From IMG/VR virus record IMGVR_UViG_3300022916_000101, positions 1 to 20,590 of that record: a DNA stretch of 20,590 nucleotides; one strand, given 5' to 3'. The DNA is from a virus. A model generated the notes under the pieces. The model was not told the origin of the DNA. It saw only the letters and a program-made list of their open reading frames with translations, and ran no database searches. Both the position numbers and the translations under genes were made by a program. Of the stretch, positions 9,045 through 17,449 are shown one piece after another (position 1 is the stretch's first letter; each line of letters begins with the position of its first letter).

Positions 9045-9305
9045 ATGAAACGAAAACCGTTATCTAAACCCCGCAGCCTTGCGGCCCGCGCATTGGAATC
9101 TCCGTTGTTCCGAATGCAGAAAGTCAAAACCCTTAAAGGTAAAGGATCATACAAACGTCGCCCGAAACACCGAGGCGGCGTTTCTGTTTTTGTCAGAGCG
9201 ACAATGCGGTTTCCAAATCTTCGTGCTCAAACGCGCTTTCCATCCGTTGGATTTCAGCTTCTTTCGCGCCGCGACGCCGTGCGACCTCACGCCAGCCTCT
9301 TGTAA
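9045..9305 (+). CDS. arfA: Alternative ribosome-rescue factor ArfA
   Basis: This 86-codon frame starts at 9045 behind a strong GAGGAAGGA site. Residues 14-42 match the ArfA core as I know it from E. coli ([28 protein letters not shown]): here ARALESPLFRMQKVKTLKGKGSYKRRPKH, with the PLFR and KGKGSY motifs. ArfA enters ribosomes stalled on non-stop mRNA and recruits release factor 2, as a backup to tmRNA. A terminator hairpin (9153-9183) falls within codons 37-46 and its T-run ends near codon 49. Most transcripts should therefore lack the stop codon at 9305 and yield a non-stop product of about 48 residues, which tmRNA would degrade when active. Codons after 49 are unlike ArfA and overlap hipA antisense. 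The gene is on the plus strand between two minus-strand phage modules, so it behaves as a moron. Confidence 0.87.
   Translation: MKRKPLSKPRSLAARALESPLFRMQKVKTLKGKGSYKRRPKHRGGVSVFVRATMRFPNLRAQTRFPSVGFQLLSRRDAVRPHASLL
9153..9191 (+). terminator. Intrinsic terminator inside the arfA reading frame
   Basis: A 10-bp stem (9153-9162 with 9174-9183, AAACGTCGCC/GGCGGCGTTT, one G-U pair) with an 11-base loop is followed by CTGTTTTTG. It lies before the arfA stop codon and just after the hipA stop (9193). It would produce a non-stop arfA mRNA, as described for proteobacterial arfA genes, where either an RNase III hairpin or a terminator truncates the message. On the hipA side the stem also forms, but the T-run is poor (TTTG). 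Confidence 0.85.
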
Positions 9306-10443
9306 CATCCGCAACATCGCGGATCAGATTATCCGCGTCCTTTGCCTTAAGCGCATATTCCTCCGCCACGGATCGAAGCAGTTCAATCGAGCAAGTTCCG
9401 TCGTCAAAATCAATATTGGTGGCCAGTATCCGAGGCTTCACATCCTGCGGGGTCGGGTTGATGTCGTAAGCCGGAGACAAGGTCCACCCACGTTGTCCGA
9501 GCCACAAAAATCCATGGTTCCGCAGGTGGTCGTCGGTGTTTGAGACGAGAATGGAAAACACCACACGTTTGTAGAGCTCTGTTCGGTCAGCGATTGCGCT
9601 CGCACCATGTTGGGTCAGAGCATCTACGATTTCCAAATAACTGCCTCGATCACCATCTCTGTGCTCGGTCATCGACATGGCCGACAAGAACGGAATTCGC
9701 TGCTGGCCATCGCGGTCGAACCGGCGTGACAAGAATATCGGGCGCCCATCGTTTTCAACAATATCATGGCGAGCCGTTCGAATGCCCGCTGCATCGGCTA
9801 AATCCAATGCAATAGCCTCCCAGCGCTCCAGGGAATAATCATCCGTCTCCTTCGGAAATTTTGCGATGGACAAACAACCATGTTGATCAATGACAGATGC
9901 CTTGGGACGCGCGCCACCGAGTGATGAGCCCGGCGCAAAAATCAGTAACAGATCCTCGTCGCTTTCTTCACCGCGCAGAATGCGCTCAGATGCGCCGAGC
10001 AACTTTCCCAAAGCCACCGTCCCCGGGACACCAACTTCTTGCGGCGCCTGGAATACATCATCCCCTTGCCAGCGAAACCGCAATGCGCCCAGTCTGGTTT
10101 CGTCAGAAACACCAAGCAGAAAATCGGCTTCATGAAGGGTGCGAATCGCTCTGCCTTCACGATCTGCTGAGCGGCGCTCCCTCCTGCGCATCAAGGTGCG
10201 GCCCCAAGTATCCGGAGCCGAATCTCCAAGCGTGCCAAACATTTCTTGGTTGGCTGGTGGCCGGAACGTGCCAGGACCAACCGGTAATGAAGGATCGATC
10301 GAAAAACTATCGGCGTCTTTGATCCATTGCTGATCATATTCGAATGTAACCGACTGCCTGGCTCGACTAGCATGTCGACGCATCAGTCCAATGCGGCGGC
10401 AATTTCCTTGCCAATCCAAGAATATCTCCACGTCCGACATCAT
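9193..10443 (-). CDS. hipA: HipA-family Ser/Thr kinase toxin
   Basis: This 416-aa protein is close to the 440 aa of E. coli HipA. The glycine-rich ATP-binding/activation segment is SSLGGARPKASV at 173-184. The kinase catalytic loop is SNTDDHLRN at 301-309, with D304 as the likely catalytic Asp and N309 as metal ligand. LSPAYDINP at 322-330 supplies the DFG-like Asp, D327. E. coli HipA phosphorylates glutamyl-tRNA synthetase and so blocks translation; homologues target other tRNA synthetases, and the target here is unknown. The ATG at 10443 overlaps the hipB stop as ATGA, giving coupled toxin-antitoxin translation. All kinase residues appear intact. The gene sits between the early phage genes and the head module and ends tail-to-tail with arfA. 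Confidence 0.93.
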   Translation of the reverse strand: MMSDVEIFLDWQGNCRRIGLMRRHASRARQSVTFEYDQQWIKDADSFSIDPSLPVGPGTFRPPANQEMFGTLGDSAPDTWGRTLMRRRERRSADREGRAIRTLHEADFLLGVSDETRLGALRFRWQGDDVFQAPQEVGVPGTVALGKLLGASERILRGEESDEDLLLIFAPGSSLGGARPKASVIDQHGCLSIAKFPKETDDYSLERWEAIALDLADAAGIRTARHDIVENDGRPIFLSRRFDRDGQQRIPFLSAMSMTEHRDGDRGSYLEIVDALTQHGASAIADRTELYKRVVFSILVSNTDDHLRNHGFLWLGQRGWTLSPAYDINPTPQDVKPRILATNIDFDDGTCSIELLRSVAEEYALKAKDADNLIRDVADVTRGWREVARRRGAKEAEIQRMESAFEHEDLETALSL

Positions 10444-10769
10444 GACTGACCTTTCCGGCTGCGCGTTATGTAAGCGCGTTGCGGCAGATCTTCTTTCGCG
10501 ATGTTTTGCCCAACATCATCATGCGTCGCATCAGCGACGTCAGCGAGACGCTCCAACAGGTTTAATGCCTGCAACACAGCTGCGATGATGCCGATGCTGA
10601 CCGACGGGTCACCTTTTTCAATACGCGAGATCGTTGGCCTGGACGTCGCAGCGCGTTCCGCCACAATTTCCATGGGCAGTTTTCTGCGTAAACGCGCGTC
10701 ACGAATGTCTTCCCCCAGCTTTTTGAGGGCGCGCCTGGCTGACGGTGGCGGACGATGCGGCGTAGGCAT
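10440..10769 (-). CDS. hipB: HipB-like antitoxin / transcriptional repressor
   Basis: This 109-aa protein has an XRE-type helix-turn-helix at about residues 15-65: LGEDIRDARLRRKLPMEIVAERAATSRPTISRIEKGDPSVSIG, including the SRPTISRIEKG recognition helix. HipB proteins bind and inhibit HipA and repress their own operon. The C-terminus (EDLPQRAYITRSRKGQS) is basic and flexible, unlike the folded core. The start has GGAAG eight bases upstream. It is the first gene of the two-gene hipBA unit, with a probable operator directly upstream (10785-10808). Confidence 0.88.
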   Translation of the reverse strand: MPTPHRPPPSARRALKKLGEDIRDARLRRKLPMEIVAERAATSRPTISRIEKGDPSVSIGIIAAVLQALNLLERLADVADATHDDVGQNIAKEDLPQRAYITRSRKGQS

Positions 10770-13369: not shown

Positions 13370-13623
13370 CAGCTGACCTCCTTGAGCACAGCGGCGTAAC
13401 CCGCAATGTCGATCATGCTATCGAGATGTTGGGGAGCGTGGGCCAGCCGTGCCAGCTTTAGATCAATCAGGCACAACGCCACCTGCGACGGCGTGATGGG
13501 CTGGCCCAGCGTAATCGACCAGCGTTTGGCGATAGCTGTCATGGATGCCATCGGATCGCCGTAAGTCTCCCTGCGATTGCCGACAACGGCAGCAGCTTGT
13601 TTGAGCATCATTTCGCCGTTCAT
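13369..13623 (-). CDS. DUF6378-family phage protein
   Basis: This 84-aa protein carries the pattern MMLKQAAAVVGNRRETYGDPMASMTAIAKRWSI followed by PSQVALCLIDLKLARLAHAPQHLDSMIDIAGYAAV. That is the recognisable signature of the DUF6378 family of small phage proteins. The helical D...D/H..D.I.D..GY layout resembles the all-alpha NTP pyrophosphohydrolase-like fold. A nucleotide-related role is possible, but no reaction is established. It overlaps the resolvase gene stop by four bases and the next gene by one base, so it belongs to the same operon. Confidence 0.8.
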   Translation of the reverse strand: MNGEMMLKQAAAVVGNRRETYGDPMASMTAIAKRWSITLGQPITPSQVALCLIDLKLARLAHAPQHLDSMIDIAGYAAVLKEVS

Positions 13624-14141
13624 TGGCCTGTCCTTCCGTCACGATGGGCCATGGCCCAGTCCAGGATCGCAAGAGCATCCGCCTCGTTGTCATCCGCCGG
13701 ATCAAACCCGAGCTTCCGAACAGCGGCGATTACCGCATCCTTGTTCGCGTTCCCTTTGCCGGTTGCGTGGCGTTTGATGGTGCCGACCGGCACAGCCTCG
13801 TAAGGGATTTCGTGGTGTTCACACCAGGCGGTGACGTGAGCCAGAAAACCGCCATAGGCGTGGGCAGCATCGACACCGGCATGATGCCGGACTTCCTCGA
13901 AGAAAACGACGTCCAGACCACCAGCCATCTGTTTGATTTCTGTGAGCCATTGCTTGAACCGCAGGAAGCGCATACCGCCGCCTTGCCAGCGATCGTTCTT
14001 GAACTCGGTTATGCCACTGGTGACGGTCCGGTCGGAAAGGCGGACCGCCCAACCGGTCTTGGTGCCGAGATCCAGTGAAAGCATGACGAGTGGCCCCTGG
14101 GCCTGATCGGCGTGAATTGTTTTCGAAGTGGTTTGGGTCAT
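13620..14141 (-). CDS. RuvC-like Holliday junction resolvase
   Basis: This 173-aa protein has the RNase H-like fold of RuvC-type crossover junction endonucleases. LSLDLGTKTGWA at 21-32 holds the first catalytic Asp, D24. VVFFEEVRHHAGVDAAHAYGGFLA at about 78-101 holds the Glu (E82 or E83). The C-terminal DDNEADALAILDWA at 150-163 ends with D155. Phages use such enzymes to cut branched DNA before packaging or during recombination. The start at 14141 is chosen for the GGAGAC site upstream; the longer frame from 14207 runs back into the repeat region. It is the first gene after the repeat array. Confidence 0.9.
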   Translation of the reverse strand: MTQTTSKTIHADQAQGPLVMLSLDLGTKTGWAVRLSDRTVTSGITEFKNDRWQGGGMRFLRFKQWLTEIKQMAGGLDVVFFEEVRHHAGVDAAHAYGGFLAHVTAWCEHHEIPYEAVPVGTIKRHATGKGNANKDAVIAAVRKLGFDPADDNEADALAILDWAMAHRDGRTGQ

Positions 14142-14181
14142 ATCGAGTCTCCATGGAAATACGTTTGCTGGTGGATTGGTT

Positions 14182-14202
14182 TTGGCAACGGGTTGGTAAT
14201 GG
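14182..14202 (+). repeat. Outlying copies of the TTGGCAACGG repeat
   Basis: TTGGCAACGG (14182-14191) is followed one base later by the variant TTGGTAATGG (14193-14202). These two copies lie about 100 bases from the main array, on the resolvase side of the hairpins. Confidence 0.75.
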
Positions 14203-14218
14203 CCCATCGGTCTCTGGT

Positions 14219-14266
14219 GGGAGGAGTGTGTGTTACCAAAAACACTCCTCCCCCTTTAGGGGGAGG
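14219..14266. repeat. Two overlapping GC-rich palindromes
   Basis: The first palindrome pairs 14219-14229 with 14242-14252 (GGGAGGAGTGT/ACACTCCTCCC, 11 bp, 12-base loop). The second pairs 14247-14254 with 14259-14266 (CCTCCCCC/GGGGGAGG, 8 bp, TTTA loop). They share 14247-14252, so only one can form at a time. The second has the form of short dispersed palindromes common between alphaproteobacterial genes, and this may be such a host repeat. Confidence 0.7.
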
Positions 14267-14308
14267 TGGAAACGTGGAAATCTTTGAAATCATTGAATAA
14301 TTTGCTGG

Positions 14309-14487
14309 TTGGCAACGGAGCGGATTAGCAACGGAGGTGAGGCAAATTTCATGATTGGTTTCAGTGCCTTGCAGAGAAAATCCCGTTGCCAAAAACTTTT
14401 GGTAACCAACTGGCAACGTGGTAATTGGCAACGGAAACACGTTTCCAAAATTCGTTTGGCAACGGCTGGTAACGCTTGGCAACGGAG
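14309..14487 (+). repeat. Array of TTGGCAACGG direct repeats (iteron-like)
   Basis: Exact or near copies start at 14309 (TTGGCAACGGAG), 14325 (TTAGCAACGGAG), 14399 (TTGGTAACC), 14410 (CTGGCAACGT), 14425 (TTGGCAACGG), 14456 (TTGGCAACGG), 14466 (CTGGTAACG) and 14476 (TTGGCAACGGAG). One inverted copy, CCGTTGCCAA, lies at 14383-14392. Spacing at the right end is 10 bases, close to one helical turn, so a bound protein would line up on one face of the DNA. The array ends 12 bases from the stop of the primase-helicase. Confidence 0.8.
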
Positions 14488-14499
14488 CAAATTGAGACA

Positions 14500-16692
14500 T
14501 CAATCTTCTCCCTCGTCAGCACCGAGAATGAACTCACCCACACCCCGTGAAAATGGCCCGCACGGGACATCCAGCCACTTGTCTTCCTTCGAGCCAGAGG
14601 CCATGCCTTTGACCAGAACGCCGTCGTTGAGGAGCTCCTGAGCCATGTCCTGGATCCGCTTGCGACCCATCTCACGAAACTCCATCGGCAGGCGATGGCG
14701 CTGCTGATAGAGTCCCGTTCCGCCGGTGTGGGTGTAGGGGTGTCCGCTTTCAGCCGCGCGGGCAATCGCTGAGACCAGCGCATCCATCAAATCCTGTTCT
14801 GGCCGGCGGCGCGCTTTCAGTGACGCCGTGACGTCCATGAGAAGACCCGTCGGCGCGCGTAAAAAAGTGCGAATGGTTCGGTCGGCTGGGCCATTGGCCT
14901 TGACCACAGCGCCTTGATAGACAGCGTTTCGAACGAACGGCTCATCCATTGTTTTGAACACGGATGCCTGATGCTCGTCAGGTGACGGCCAGAGCGCATA
15001 GACCATGCGCACCCCATCAACAATTGCACTGGTGCCACGCACCGCGTCGCGCGCCTGTTCGACGGAAGCGATGGGTCGGTTGCCCTGTGGCTTGCGCATG
15101 TGGTGGGCAACGATGATGGCAGCGCCCGTCTCTGTGGCGAGGCTTGCCAACAAGCCGGTCGCAAAACTGCCCGCAGCCGGGTCGGACGTGACATCGGCAT
15201 GGATGAACGATGCCAATGGATCGAACACCACCAGTTTGAGATTACGAAGCCGCAGGATTTGATCTCGCAGTAATTTGAACTGGGGTGTGATCTCAGGGCC
15301 GTCCTTACCGGACACCACCAGAGGGATTGGCCCTCCCGCATTGGGCAAAGGAACGACAATCAAACGCTCAGGGACCTTGAGACGAAGCTCGTTCGGATCC
15401 AGTCGCTGCAGTCGCCTGTGAACCTCGCCCAGGTCGTCCTCGGCGGTGAAAATAACCGCTGTGCCAAACTCCCTCACTGGGCCGCCGAAGGCCATGGGCT
15501 CTGGACTGACAGACACAGAGCGCGGCTCGCCGGTTGCCACTGACAACGCTAAGTCCAGGGTCATCATGCCTTTTCCGGTATCACCCATGGCGGCGAGGAT
15601 TGAGACGACGCCCATGGGGAACGCACCCTCCACCAGAAAATGCTGCTCCGGGGCTTCGCCGGAATACCGGGTCGCCTGCCAATCCAGGAGGTTGAGATTT
15701 GTCTTTTCAGCACGAATGGACTGGCGCTCAGTAGTTGCGATGAACTCGGCCACATCTACGCCCTCAGCAACCGCGTCGGCGGCATCCCATTTGTCGGGCT
15801 TGTCATCAGGAGGGAGCAAAATGGACGCCGCCAGAGCGCCCGTGGCCAAAACAGCCTTCGATGCAGCCATGGCGTATTGCCAACCGGGACCATCCTTGTC
15901 CGGCCAGATCAGCACGCGCTTTCCTTTGAGCGGAGACCAGTCGGTTTTATCGACAGGCGCCTTGGCCCCGTTCATGGCGGTGGTGGCGCAGAGACCTTGC
16001 GCGATCAGGGCCTCAGCGCATTTTTCGCCTTCTACCAAAATGACGTCATCTGAACTCTTGATACCTGGTCGATTAAACAGAGGACGCGGATCAGGGGCTT
16101 TGGTCTTTCGGCTGAGAACATCCCAAGGGCGGAACTGTTTTCCTGTAGGAGGATCATAACGATAGACGTTGGCGATCAGCTTGCCGTCTTCGTCATGGTA
16201 GTCCCACTTGGCGGTCACCGGACCCAGCTCATCCATGGGTGGAGATTTGGTTTTGGCGATGCGGTCATCATGGAACGTTCGGGTATAGCCATCGAGCCAA
16301 CCGCGAATGTCTTCCATGATGATGGGGAAATCGGTGCGCGTGTCGTGACCACTGACCGCAGCCCACAGACTGATAATGTCACCACCTTCACCAGTGGCAA
16401 AGTCATGCCACATTCCGGCTTTTTGTCCGTTGAGTTCAACGGAAAGGCTATCGCCGCGATTTCCACGAACATCGCCCGCGACAAACTTGCCGCCTTGGTA
16501 GACGCCGCCCGGAAGCAGATAAGACAGCACACCTCGAATGTTAAATAGCATCCGGGTCTTGATATCCTCCGTGGTCTCGGAGAAATCCCGCGTTCGGTAA
16601 TCGTCCGGGTTTTGAGGTTCGGCGTCATTGAAGTCACGCCAACGATCAAAGTTGATAACGTTGTCGTCCCCATCTGTTAAGATTTCAGACAT
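14500..16692 (-). CDS. Phage primase-helicase (Toprim plus RecA-like ATPase)
   Basis: This 730-aa multidomain replication protein has these regions in order. About 73-112 is a primase-type N-terminal region (RGDSLSVELNGQKAGMWHDFATGEGGD) without zinc cysteines. About 215-300 is a Toprim-like domain with ILVEGEKCAEAL (acid at E221) and VLIWPDKDGPG (263-269). From about 355 is a RecA/RepA-like ATPase with Walker A GDTGKG at 370-375, Walker B VVFDPLA at 488-494 and IIVAHHMRK. It probably primes and unwinds phage DNA. The start at 16692 (MSEILTDGDD) has GGGGA upstream and overlaps the nuclease gene by eight bases. The N-terminal WRDFNDAEPQ (18-27) recurs at the N-terminus of the protein at 19555-20187. 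The 3' end abuts the repeat array. Confidence 0.88.
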   Translation of the reverse strand: MSEILTDGDDNVINFDRWRDFNDAEPQNPDDYRTRDFSETTEDIKTRMLFNIRGVLSYLLPGGVYQGGKFVAGDVRGNRGDSLSVELNGQKAGMWHDFATGEGGDIISLWAAVSGHDTRTDFPIIMEDIRGWLDGYTRTFHDDRIAKTKSPPMDELGPVTAKWDYHDEDGKLIANVYRYDPPTGKQFRPWDVLSRKTKAPDPRPLFNRPGIKSSDDVILVEGEKCAEALIAQGLCATTAMNGAKAPVDKTDWSPLKGKRVLIWPDKDGPGWQYAMAASKAVLATGALAASILLPPDDKPDKWDAADAVAEGVDVAEFIATTERQSIRAEKTNLNLLDWQATRYSGEAPEQHFLVEGAFPMGVVSILAAMGDTGKGMMTLDLALSVATGEPRSVSVSPEPMAFGGPVREFGTAVIFTAEDDLGEVHRRLQRLDPNELRLKVPERLIVVPLPNAGGPIPLVVSGKDGPEITPQFKLLRDQILRLRNLKLVVFDPLASFIHADVTSDPAAGSFATGLLASLATETGAAIIVAHHMRKPQGNRPIASVEQARDAVRGTSAIVDGVRMVYALWPSPDEHQASVFKTMDEPFVRNAVYQGAVVKANGPADRTIRTFLRAPTGLLMDVTASLKARRRPEQDLMDALVSAIARAAESGHPYTHTGGTGLYQQRHRLPMEFREMGRKRIQDMAQELLNDGVLVKGMASGSKEDKWLDVPCGPFSRGVGEFILGADEGED

Positions 16693-17449
16693 GCTCAGTC
16701 CCCCAGCAGCGGTCTGACCAAGAGCAAAACTTGCATTCAAAGAAATCCGCCGACTGCGCTATGCGAGGCAGAAGTTCGCCCGCATCGGTTGCCTGAAGAA
16801 TGCGCACGGCCTTGTCGCTGGACGTTTGCGCCAACGCGCCATCGAAGGGCACAAGCTCGTGATAGAGTTCTGCCGTGTCTTTGTTTATGGCTGTGAACAG
16901 CGCGGGGTTCGATGAGATACCAGGAACAGATGCTTCCATGTAGGCCTGATAGGTGGCGATCTGGGCGGCGTACACGGGTTTAGAAATTGCCAACCCGCGT
17001 TTGACCGTGTCTTTCCAGGATCGGGCGTTCATGGATTTGCATTCCCAAAGCGCTGGAAAGCCTGGTAGCAGCGGGCCGCCATTGATGATGCCATCCACAT
17101 GGCCGCGAATGCGTCCGCCCGCGACTGAAAACCCGAACTGCTCACCACCCGAGCGGTTGCCCTTGGTGGTATAGAGATCGAAGCCCGCTTTGCGCAGCCA
17201 GTCTATGGCCAGGTCTTCAAAAAGATGACCAGCAGCGAAGATCCGCAAGGTCTGACCATTAAAGTCAGCGCCATCATCTTTTGGGGCATTTGCGTATTCA
17301 AACTGAAGCGCTCTTTCGCAACCCACACCCAGACGCGAACCACCAAGGTAGTCGCGTGACGGGTGTGATAAATTTTCTGCAACCAAGGCTTCGTCGATTA
17401 GAGCGTTAAGCTGTTCGGCGACGCTGGCTGAATGATTAAAATCCAACAT
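16685..17449 (-). CDS. Cas4-like PD-(D/E)XK nuclease with predicted Fe-S cluster
   Basis: This 254-aa protein shows nuclease motifs GHLFEDL (H75, E78), GHVDG (D119), WECKS (E136, K138) and a downstream QIATYQAYM (Q163). Four cysteines are placed as in Cas4/AddB-type enzymes: C44 in the N-terminal GCERAL and C239, C242, C248 in the C-terminal FFECKFCSWSDRCW. The likely product is a DNA exonuclease stabilised by a 4Fe-4S cluster, working in phage recombination or end processing. No other CRISPR genes are present, so an adaptation role is not suggested. It overlaps both neighbours (one base with DUF6511, eight with the primase), within a tight operon. The cluster and the nuclease polarity are inferred. 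Confidence 0.85.
   Translation of the reverse strand: MLDFNHSASVAEQLNALIDEALVAENLSHPSRDYLGGSRLGVGCERALQFEYANAPKDDGADFNGQTLRIFAAGHLFEDLAIDWLRKAGFDLYTTKGNRSGGEQFGFSVAGGRIRGHVDGIINGGPLLPGFPALWECKSMNARSWKDTVKRGLAISKPVYAAQIATYQAYMEASVPGISSNPALFTAINKDTAELYHELVPFDGALAQTSSDKAVRILQATDAGELLPRIAQSADFFECKFCSWSDRCWGTEHV

Follow-up and report, generated by a model that had tools for sequence, protein, structure and literature searches.

The non-coding gap between a primase-helicase gene and a RuvC-like gene is very probably an iteron replication origin, whose short repeated words would be bound by the C-terminal winged helix of the adjacent primase-helicase; from sequence comparison, we infer both the binding and the origin activity. 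The gap belongs to an IMG/VR virus record of 20,590 bases, and "window" refers here to this whole stretch. The preliminary description had put the array forward as a candidate phage origin beside the primase-helicase, and this is still the best reading; relatives point to the C-terminal winged helix as the binder. Computation provides the array itself, its position in relatives, the coordinated change of its word, the co-change of a predicted recognition helix, the homology of the helicase and a predicted winged-helix fold.

The array lies directly 3′ of the TOPRIM primase/RSF1010-RepA-type helicase gene and upstream of the RuvC-like gene, in a gap that runs between the primase stop (14500) and the RuvC-like start (14141).

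13620-14141, minus strand: RuvC-like Holliday junction resolvase, a neighbour that the array keeps even where the initiator module has been exchanged
14142-14499 (about 357 nt): putative replication origin, the non-coding gap from the primase-helicase stop to the RuvC-like start
14182-14191, plus strand: exact repeat TTGGCAACGG
14193-14202, plus strand: variant repeat TTGGTAATGG
14309-14318, plus strand: exact repeat TTGGCAACGG
14325-14334, plus strand: variant repeat TTAGCAACGG
14383-14392, minus strand: exact repeat TTGGCAACGG, inverted
14410-14419, plus strand: variant repeat CTGGCAACGT
14425-14434, plus strand: exact repeat TTGGCAACGG
14439-14448, minus strand: variant repeat TTGGAAACGT, inverted
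14456-14465, plus strand: exact repeat TTGGCAACGG
14466-14475, plus strand: variant repeat CTGGTAACGC, read directly
14476-14485, plus strand: exact repeat TTGGCAACGG

Elsewhere in the window, a HipA-like toxin gene (HipA_C, 9193-10769) sits between the methylase and terminase genes, with a small antitoxin-like gene of HTH type next to it on the minus strand.

Exact TTGGCAACGG occurs six times in the record and only in the array, within 14182-14485, with five copies on the plus strand and the one at 14383 inverted. Allowing up to two mismatches, 48 matches were found in the window against 26 ± 5 in shuffles. The octamer CGTTGCCA has 7 exact occurrences in the gap and 11 with at most one mismatch, and none of 390 other windows of equal length has more than 3 such sites; the commonest 7-mer of the gap is found 7 times, and no more than 4 times in any of 1,000 dinucleotide shuffles. 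A simple motif finder placed about 16 sites in the gap, 13 of them oriented one way and 3 the opposite way. The array as first described, with at least ten copies or variants and one inverted copy in about 300 non-coding bases, is confirmed. Short repeats beyond chance beside the proposed initiator gene, as expected of an iteron origin, are present. The right-end copies do lie 10 bp apart, as first described (14456, the variant at 14466, and 14476), but the proposal that they share one DNA face is not general, because the commonest head-to-tail spacing across the family is 7-8 bp on the same strand. A scan of viral contigs for CGTTGCCA arrays returned 119 stretches and was set aside; many of the stretches have spacings that are multiples of three, which suggests coding repeats.

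Further features of the gap are the following:

14219-14252: strong hairpin with 11-bp arms GGGAGGAGTGT/ACACTCCTCCC, a candidate priming site
14247-14266: hairpin CCTCCCCC-TTTA-GGGGGAGG, overlapping the 14219-14252 hairpin and mutually exclusive with it
14281-14305: AT-rich tract, a candidate unwinding element

The AT-rich tract noted at the outset was confirmed by count (19 of 25 bases A/T), and its complement (..ATGATTTCAAAGATTTCC.., with an ATTTCAA stretch) ranks among the parts of the gap outside the words that close relatives conserve best. Strong stem-loops, one or two per lineage, recur at the RuvC end in most lineages, their position shared and their stem sequences different. Their likeness to ssiA and ssiB of RSF1010, single-strand initiation sites for primase (PMC6925257), leads us to infer that they may be a priming site. 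GC skew, suggested earlier as a check, gave a divided answer: its cumulative minimum falls at the array in five of nine records (the window and four of the eight others) and the curve is monotonic in the other four. No DnaA box (TTWTNCACA) was found in the gap, and the single match in the window, at 2215, is at chance level; a DnaA-dependent origin, which would call for such boxes in the gap, was rejected. Rfam models of structured RNAs had no match in the gap.

The proposed initiator and its relevant parts are as follows:

14500-16740, minus strand: TOPRIM primase (motifs by eye) with RSF1010 RepA-type helicase and C-terminal winged helix, the proposed origin-binding initiator
14566-14802, minus strand: C-terminal winged-helix domain, about residues 647-725, predicted by AlphaFold
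14626-14664, minus strand: predicted recognition helix, residues 693-705 (RKRIQDMAQELLN), with K694 the best co-changing residue and R693 and Q697 secondary

The N-terminal half shows TOPRIM-like motifs by eye (VEGEK, PDKD) and matches the PHROG DNA primase/helicase family, while Pfam recognises only AAA_25, in the middle of the protein. A profile match to the RSF1010 RepA helicase (4.6e-11) places the helicase, at the level of sequence profiles, with RepA of RSF1010/IncQ, a hexameric type. AlphaFold models of 23 family C-termini (mean pLDDT 85.7) have a winged-helix arrangement, with helices at 647-664, 686-689 and 693-705 and, after them, strands at 710-712 and 722-724. In a fold search that included the PDB, the matches were RSF1010 RepA and a range of winged-helix proteins, all at E 0.001 or above.

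Relatives were gathered by searching viral contigs and genomes with the primase-helicase protein and with RuvC, and word classes were assigned by the analyst from counts. In most phages of two clades of the primase-helicase family, A and B, an array occupies the same place and the word differs; in relatives at 40-82% identity, the array follows the primase stop, each with a locus-specific word. In clade A, which includes the window, it is the same gap after the primase stop that carries the array, with the following words:

GTTGCCA: window, L020, L036, L077
GTTCCCA: L009-L013, L053, L054
TTCCCGG: L021/L075, L205
GTTGCCA and GTTTCCA mixed: L016-like
TTTCCGG: L026
TTTCCAG: L028, L043
GTTTCCA: L040
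GTTCCT: L049
TTCCTGA: L061

TTCCTA is also found among the array words of relatives. Clade B proteins have a different ATPase half and C-terminus from those of clade A, and their words include GGATTCT (L044), GAATAGT (L050), GGAAACT (L149), GCAAACT (L159), GCCAACT (L240), CCAAACT (L274) and others. When the close group is aligned, the sites are homologous and mainly the word bases change with the flanks kept, as in CACGTT[T/G/C]CCACCTCCCC and TCCGTT[G/T/C]CC; the copies of an array switch word together while their positions and flanks stay homologous. The check proposed earlier, a search of relatives for the same word in the same gap, finds that close relatives keep the array but often not the word. 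Absence of the array from close relatives, named in advance as grounds for refutation, was not what we found; they retain it in the gap under another word, which favours the origin reading in an unforeseen way.

An array beside the primase characterises clades A and B but does not extend to all relatives: as a dense adjacent feature it is missing from about 50 marine ones near 40% identity. In Rickettsiales genomes, about nine copies of the primase, several of which have reading frames that look intact, show none within the adjacent 400 nt. These copies probably belong to WO-type (Wolbachia) prophages; on the ±1.5 kb covered around them, relocation of the array or decay of the prophages may each explain its absence. 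At these loci (L497, L500, L502, L505, L507, L511, L493, L494 and L496), the genes are intact or nearly so and other sequence or genes stand at the place of the array. L530, in genome G664, pairs an array of a further word, CGTTGGCA, with the atypical helix MGEKRLRSL, and two more loci of that genome, L520 and L527, have GTTCCC words. Five other loci (L255, L262, L264, L270 and L169, the last from AcaML1) have the same RuvC family preceded by an apparent D5/P4-type primase, and the gaps there are short and seem to carry other, sparser repeats such as CCGTCAG. This may be a third case of initiator-module exchange.

Comparison of gene contents points to the primase C-terminal winged helix, and not the neighbouring genes, as the element that the word follows. 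In L153 the cassette around the gap is conserved throughout, with 81% identity in RuvC, 82% in the Cas4-like protein, 94% in DUF6378, 76% in the helicase and 64% in the primase N-terminus, yet no match could be detected for the primase ATPase and C-terminus, and the word is unrelated. L008 (IMGVR_UViG_3300027544_000011) combines an L010-like primase body with an L016-like winged helix and array, and looks like a recombinant. Linkage alone is no proof of function, because the primase C-terminus and the array are physically adjacent. The array might instead be a set of operators through which the primase-helicase or a phage regulator silences or times the downstream RuvC-methylase operon, an explanation we regard as unlikely. 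Lying between the primase stop and the RuvC start with one transcriptional direction, the array also forms the 5′ flank of the genes that follow, and iteron binders often autoregulate. Yet word identity tracks the replicative protein rather than any small regulator or neighbour, the primase gene is upstream of the array, so this is no simple primase operator, and paired hairpins and an AT-rich tract would be superfluous for an operator. Operator function may be a secondary role of the array.

We then asked which residues change with the word, using a branch co-change scan over a tree of the protein body that left out the C-terminal region (43 tips, 14 word-switch branches, 580 variable columns). 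K694 ranked first of the 580 columns, changing on 10 of the 14 word-switch branches (hypergeometric p = 1.0e-5, or about 0.006 corrected for 580 columns). R693 ranked 8 and Q697 ranked 11, and other columns co-change too. Across 24 trees, the original and 23 bootstraps with random tie-breaking, K694 ranked 1-3 in 18 and 19-88 in four. Two other analyses were set aside. A first scan with 35 tips placed helix columns near the top with others higher, and its three-residue class (p about 1e-6) was post hoc; a sliding-window partial Mantel scan was significant for the wing and C-terminus as much as for the helix, probably on account of word matrices in mixed register, and was replaced by the branch scan.

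Within clade A, the helix reads MGRKRIQDM in the window, MARNKIEGL in L009, IGRNRLEAM in L021, ISRHRLEKM in L026 and VGRDRLEKV in L049; in clade B it varies with the word at equivalent positions (GGRSTIAER, GGRTTIGER, GGKSTINER, GANRTINER, GGERTIRER). Arg-His accompanies TTTCC in 8 of 8 tips, Arg-Lys-Gln accompanies TTGCC in 6 of 6, and Arg-Asp accompanies TTCC[T/G] in 8 of 8 tips from five lineages, with Lys-Arg-Trp found beside TTTCC in two tips. The helix-word rule was written down before further loci were fetched, and the search was then extended to 263 genomes from one order and 399 from the phylum. No new clade A locus with an array contradicted it. Arg-Asp came with TTCCT in L501, L506 and L513/L508 and with TTCC[G/T] in L532 and L525; Arg-Asn came with TTCCC in L520, and L489, which nearly duplicates L031, paired Arg-His with TTTCC. 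Outside the written rule, L521, L527 and L533 combined TTCCC with Lys-His plus A or T at x4, and the new helix types Arg-Thr, Arg-Ala and Arg-Ser, also with TTCCC, were not predicted by it. For clade B, L175 and L176 agree with loci of the same helix and L266 is a miss. By this co-change of helix and word, the DNA-binding domain of the putative initiator appears matched to its own repeats, as expected of an iteron origin.

The same data bear on whether another phage protein binds the array, for instance at a packaging or partition site, which we consider very unlikely. Candidates would be the DUF6362 HTH protein, the ParB-like methylase, the terminase small subunit or an off-contig repressor: DUF6362 looks like a sigma-type HTH protein, the window encodes a ParB_N-methylase and a terminase, and centromere and packaging sites typically have dense direct repeats. 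However, DUF6362 is more alike between the window and L009, which has a different word (60%), than between the window and L020, which has the same word (47%), and the methylase likewise (88% against 59%). The terminase genes lie more than 5 kb away, and it is the recognition-helix column of the primase that ranks first. DUF6362, the methylase, RuvC and the terminase were ruled out as word readers by such identities or by distance. Least probable of all is homogenisation of the word without a cognate reader, by gene conversion or slippage that changes all copies: concerted change of tandem copies is common in satellite DNA, but here the copies are scattered over about 300 nt in both orientations, one or two bases change with the flanks fixed, and repeated co-change with one winged-helix residue in independent lineages would be unexpected.

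Under the preferred reading of an iteron origin read by the primase-helicase, recognition helix 693-705 would dock several protomers on the array, with R693, K694 and Q697 reading the middle of GTTnCC. A helicase ring like that of RSF1010 RepA would be nucleated at the array and melt the AT-rich tract inside it, and the TOPRIM primase of the same protein could then prime the strands that this exposes, possibly at the tandem hairpins towards RuvC. Host polymerase would extend from there, and the GC-skew minimum at the array is consistent with bidirectional replication. Initiator and word would evolve as a lock-and-key pair, which would explain why related phages carry different words at homologous positions.

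The proposed arrangement has several known counterparts. In SaPI and SCC elements, the C-terminal domain of the initiator helicase reads iterons directly downstream of its own gene (PMC7581432). The architecture of SaPI/SCCmec Rep/ori (SaPIbov1 Rep, SaPI5 Rep, Cch2) is alike, with the array here also directly downstream of the primase-helicase gene and C-terminal reading suggested by co-change, but the protein family differs: SaPI/SCC helicases are DUF927 or D5/Primase_Cterm proteins, whereas neither domain was found here, and the protein joins a TOPRIM primase to an ATPase of the RSF1010 RepA type. The array is also longer than in SaPI/SCC, and word and recognition helix have switched jointly many times. 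RSF1010/IncQ oriV, with RepA helicase, RepB primase and RepC iteron binder, similarly combines a RepA-type helicase, a primase and iterons. There, three proteins are involved and a separate RepC reads the iterons; here, primase, helicase and putative DNA reader form one chain, and the word follows the helicase-fused C-terminal domain rather than a separate RepC-like binder. The iterons of RSF1010 are 20 bp, and those described here are shorter, at about 8 bp. The alpha protein of phage P4 resembles the proposed initiator in being a one-chain primase-helicase; its C-terminal winged helix binds short repeats (ori1/crr type I), with a distant second site, crr; its ATPase and primase families are different from those of the window protein. 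In the PLE of Vibrio cholerae, the DNA-binding domain of the initiator RepA co-varies with the origin while the rest of the protein is conserved, and the ICP1 nuclease Odn cuts the PLE origin and may select for origin change (PMC8263062, PMC7145576). PLE initiators belong to the RepA_N family and use semi-palindromic iterons of about 30 bp in two module types, compared with more than 12 words in two protein clades here.

The RepA-like gene of Wolbachia phage WO (gp5) is a direct homologue, at about 50-54% identity. Some WO-type loci have TTTCC or TTCCT arrays after the gene, and several WO-type copies are without an adjacent array. The main WO genomics paper describes no phage origin; "origin of replication" refers there to the bacterial chromosome, and "iteron" is absent. 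In the literature covered, mostly outside subscription journals, we found no description of the array or of a word code for this primase-helicase family.

We speculate, tentatively, that the pairing amounts to a natural initiator-origin code, in which one or two winged-helix residues (x1 and its R/K neighbour) set the word, and words diversify against origin-targeting competitors or against cross-firing between related prophages in one cell. In favour of diversification, different words co-occur in sample 3300022912 (L007, GTTGCCA; L044, GGATTCT), record set 2775507270 (L081, GTTTCCA; L441, GAGTTGC) and genome G661 (L521, GTTCCCGG; L532, GTTCCGG). A counter-example to strict word avoidance comes from L028 and L043 (record set 2574179790), which share TTTCCAG and have near-identical primase C-termini. 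The analysis proposes a putative origin and its reader for a large prophage group of Alphaproteobacteria and others, relatives of phage WO included. About 20 helix types set against more than 12 words form a comparative dataset on which a winged-helix code could be tried out through single-residue swaps. How an initiator and its origin could change specificity without dying would become directly testable, and origin compatibility groups among prophages would be predictable from sequence alone.
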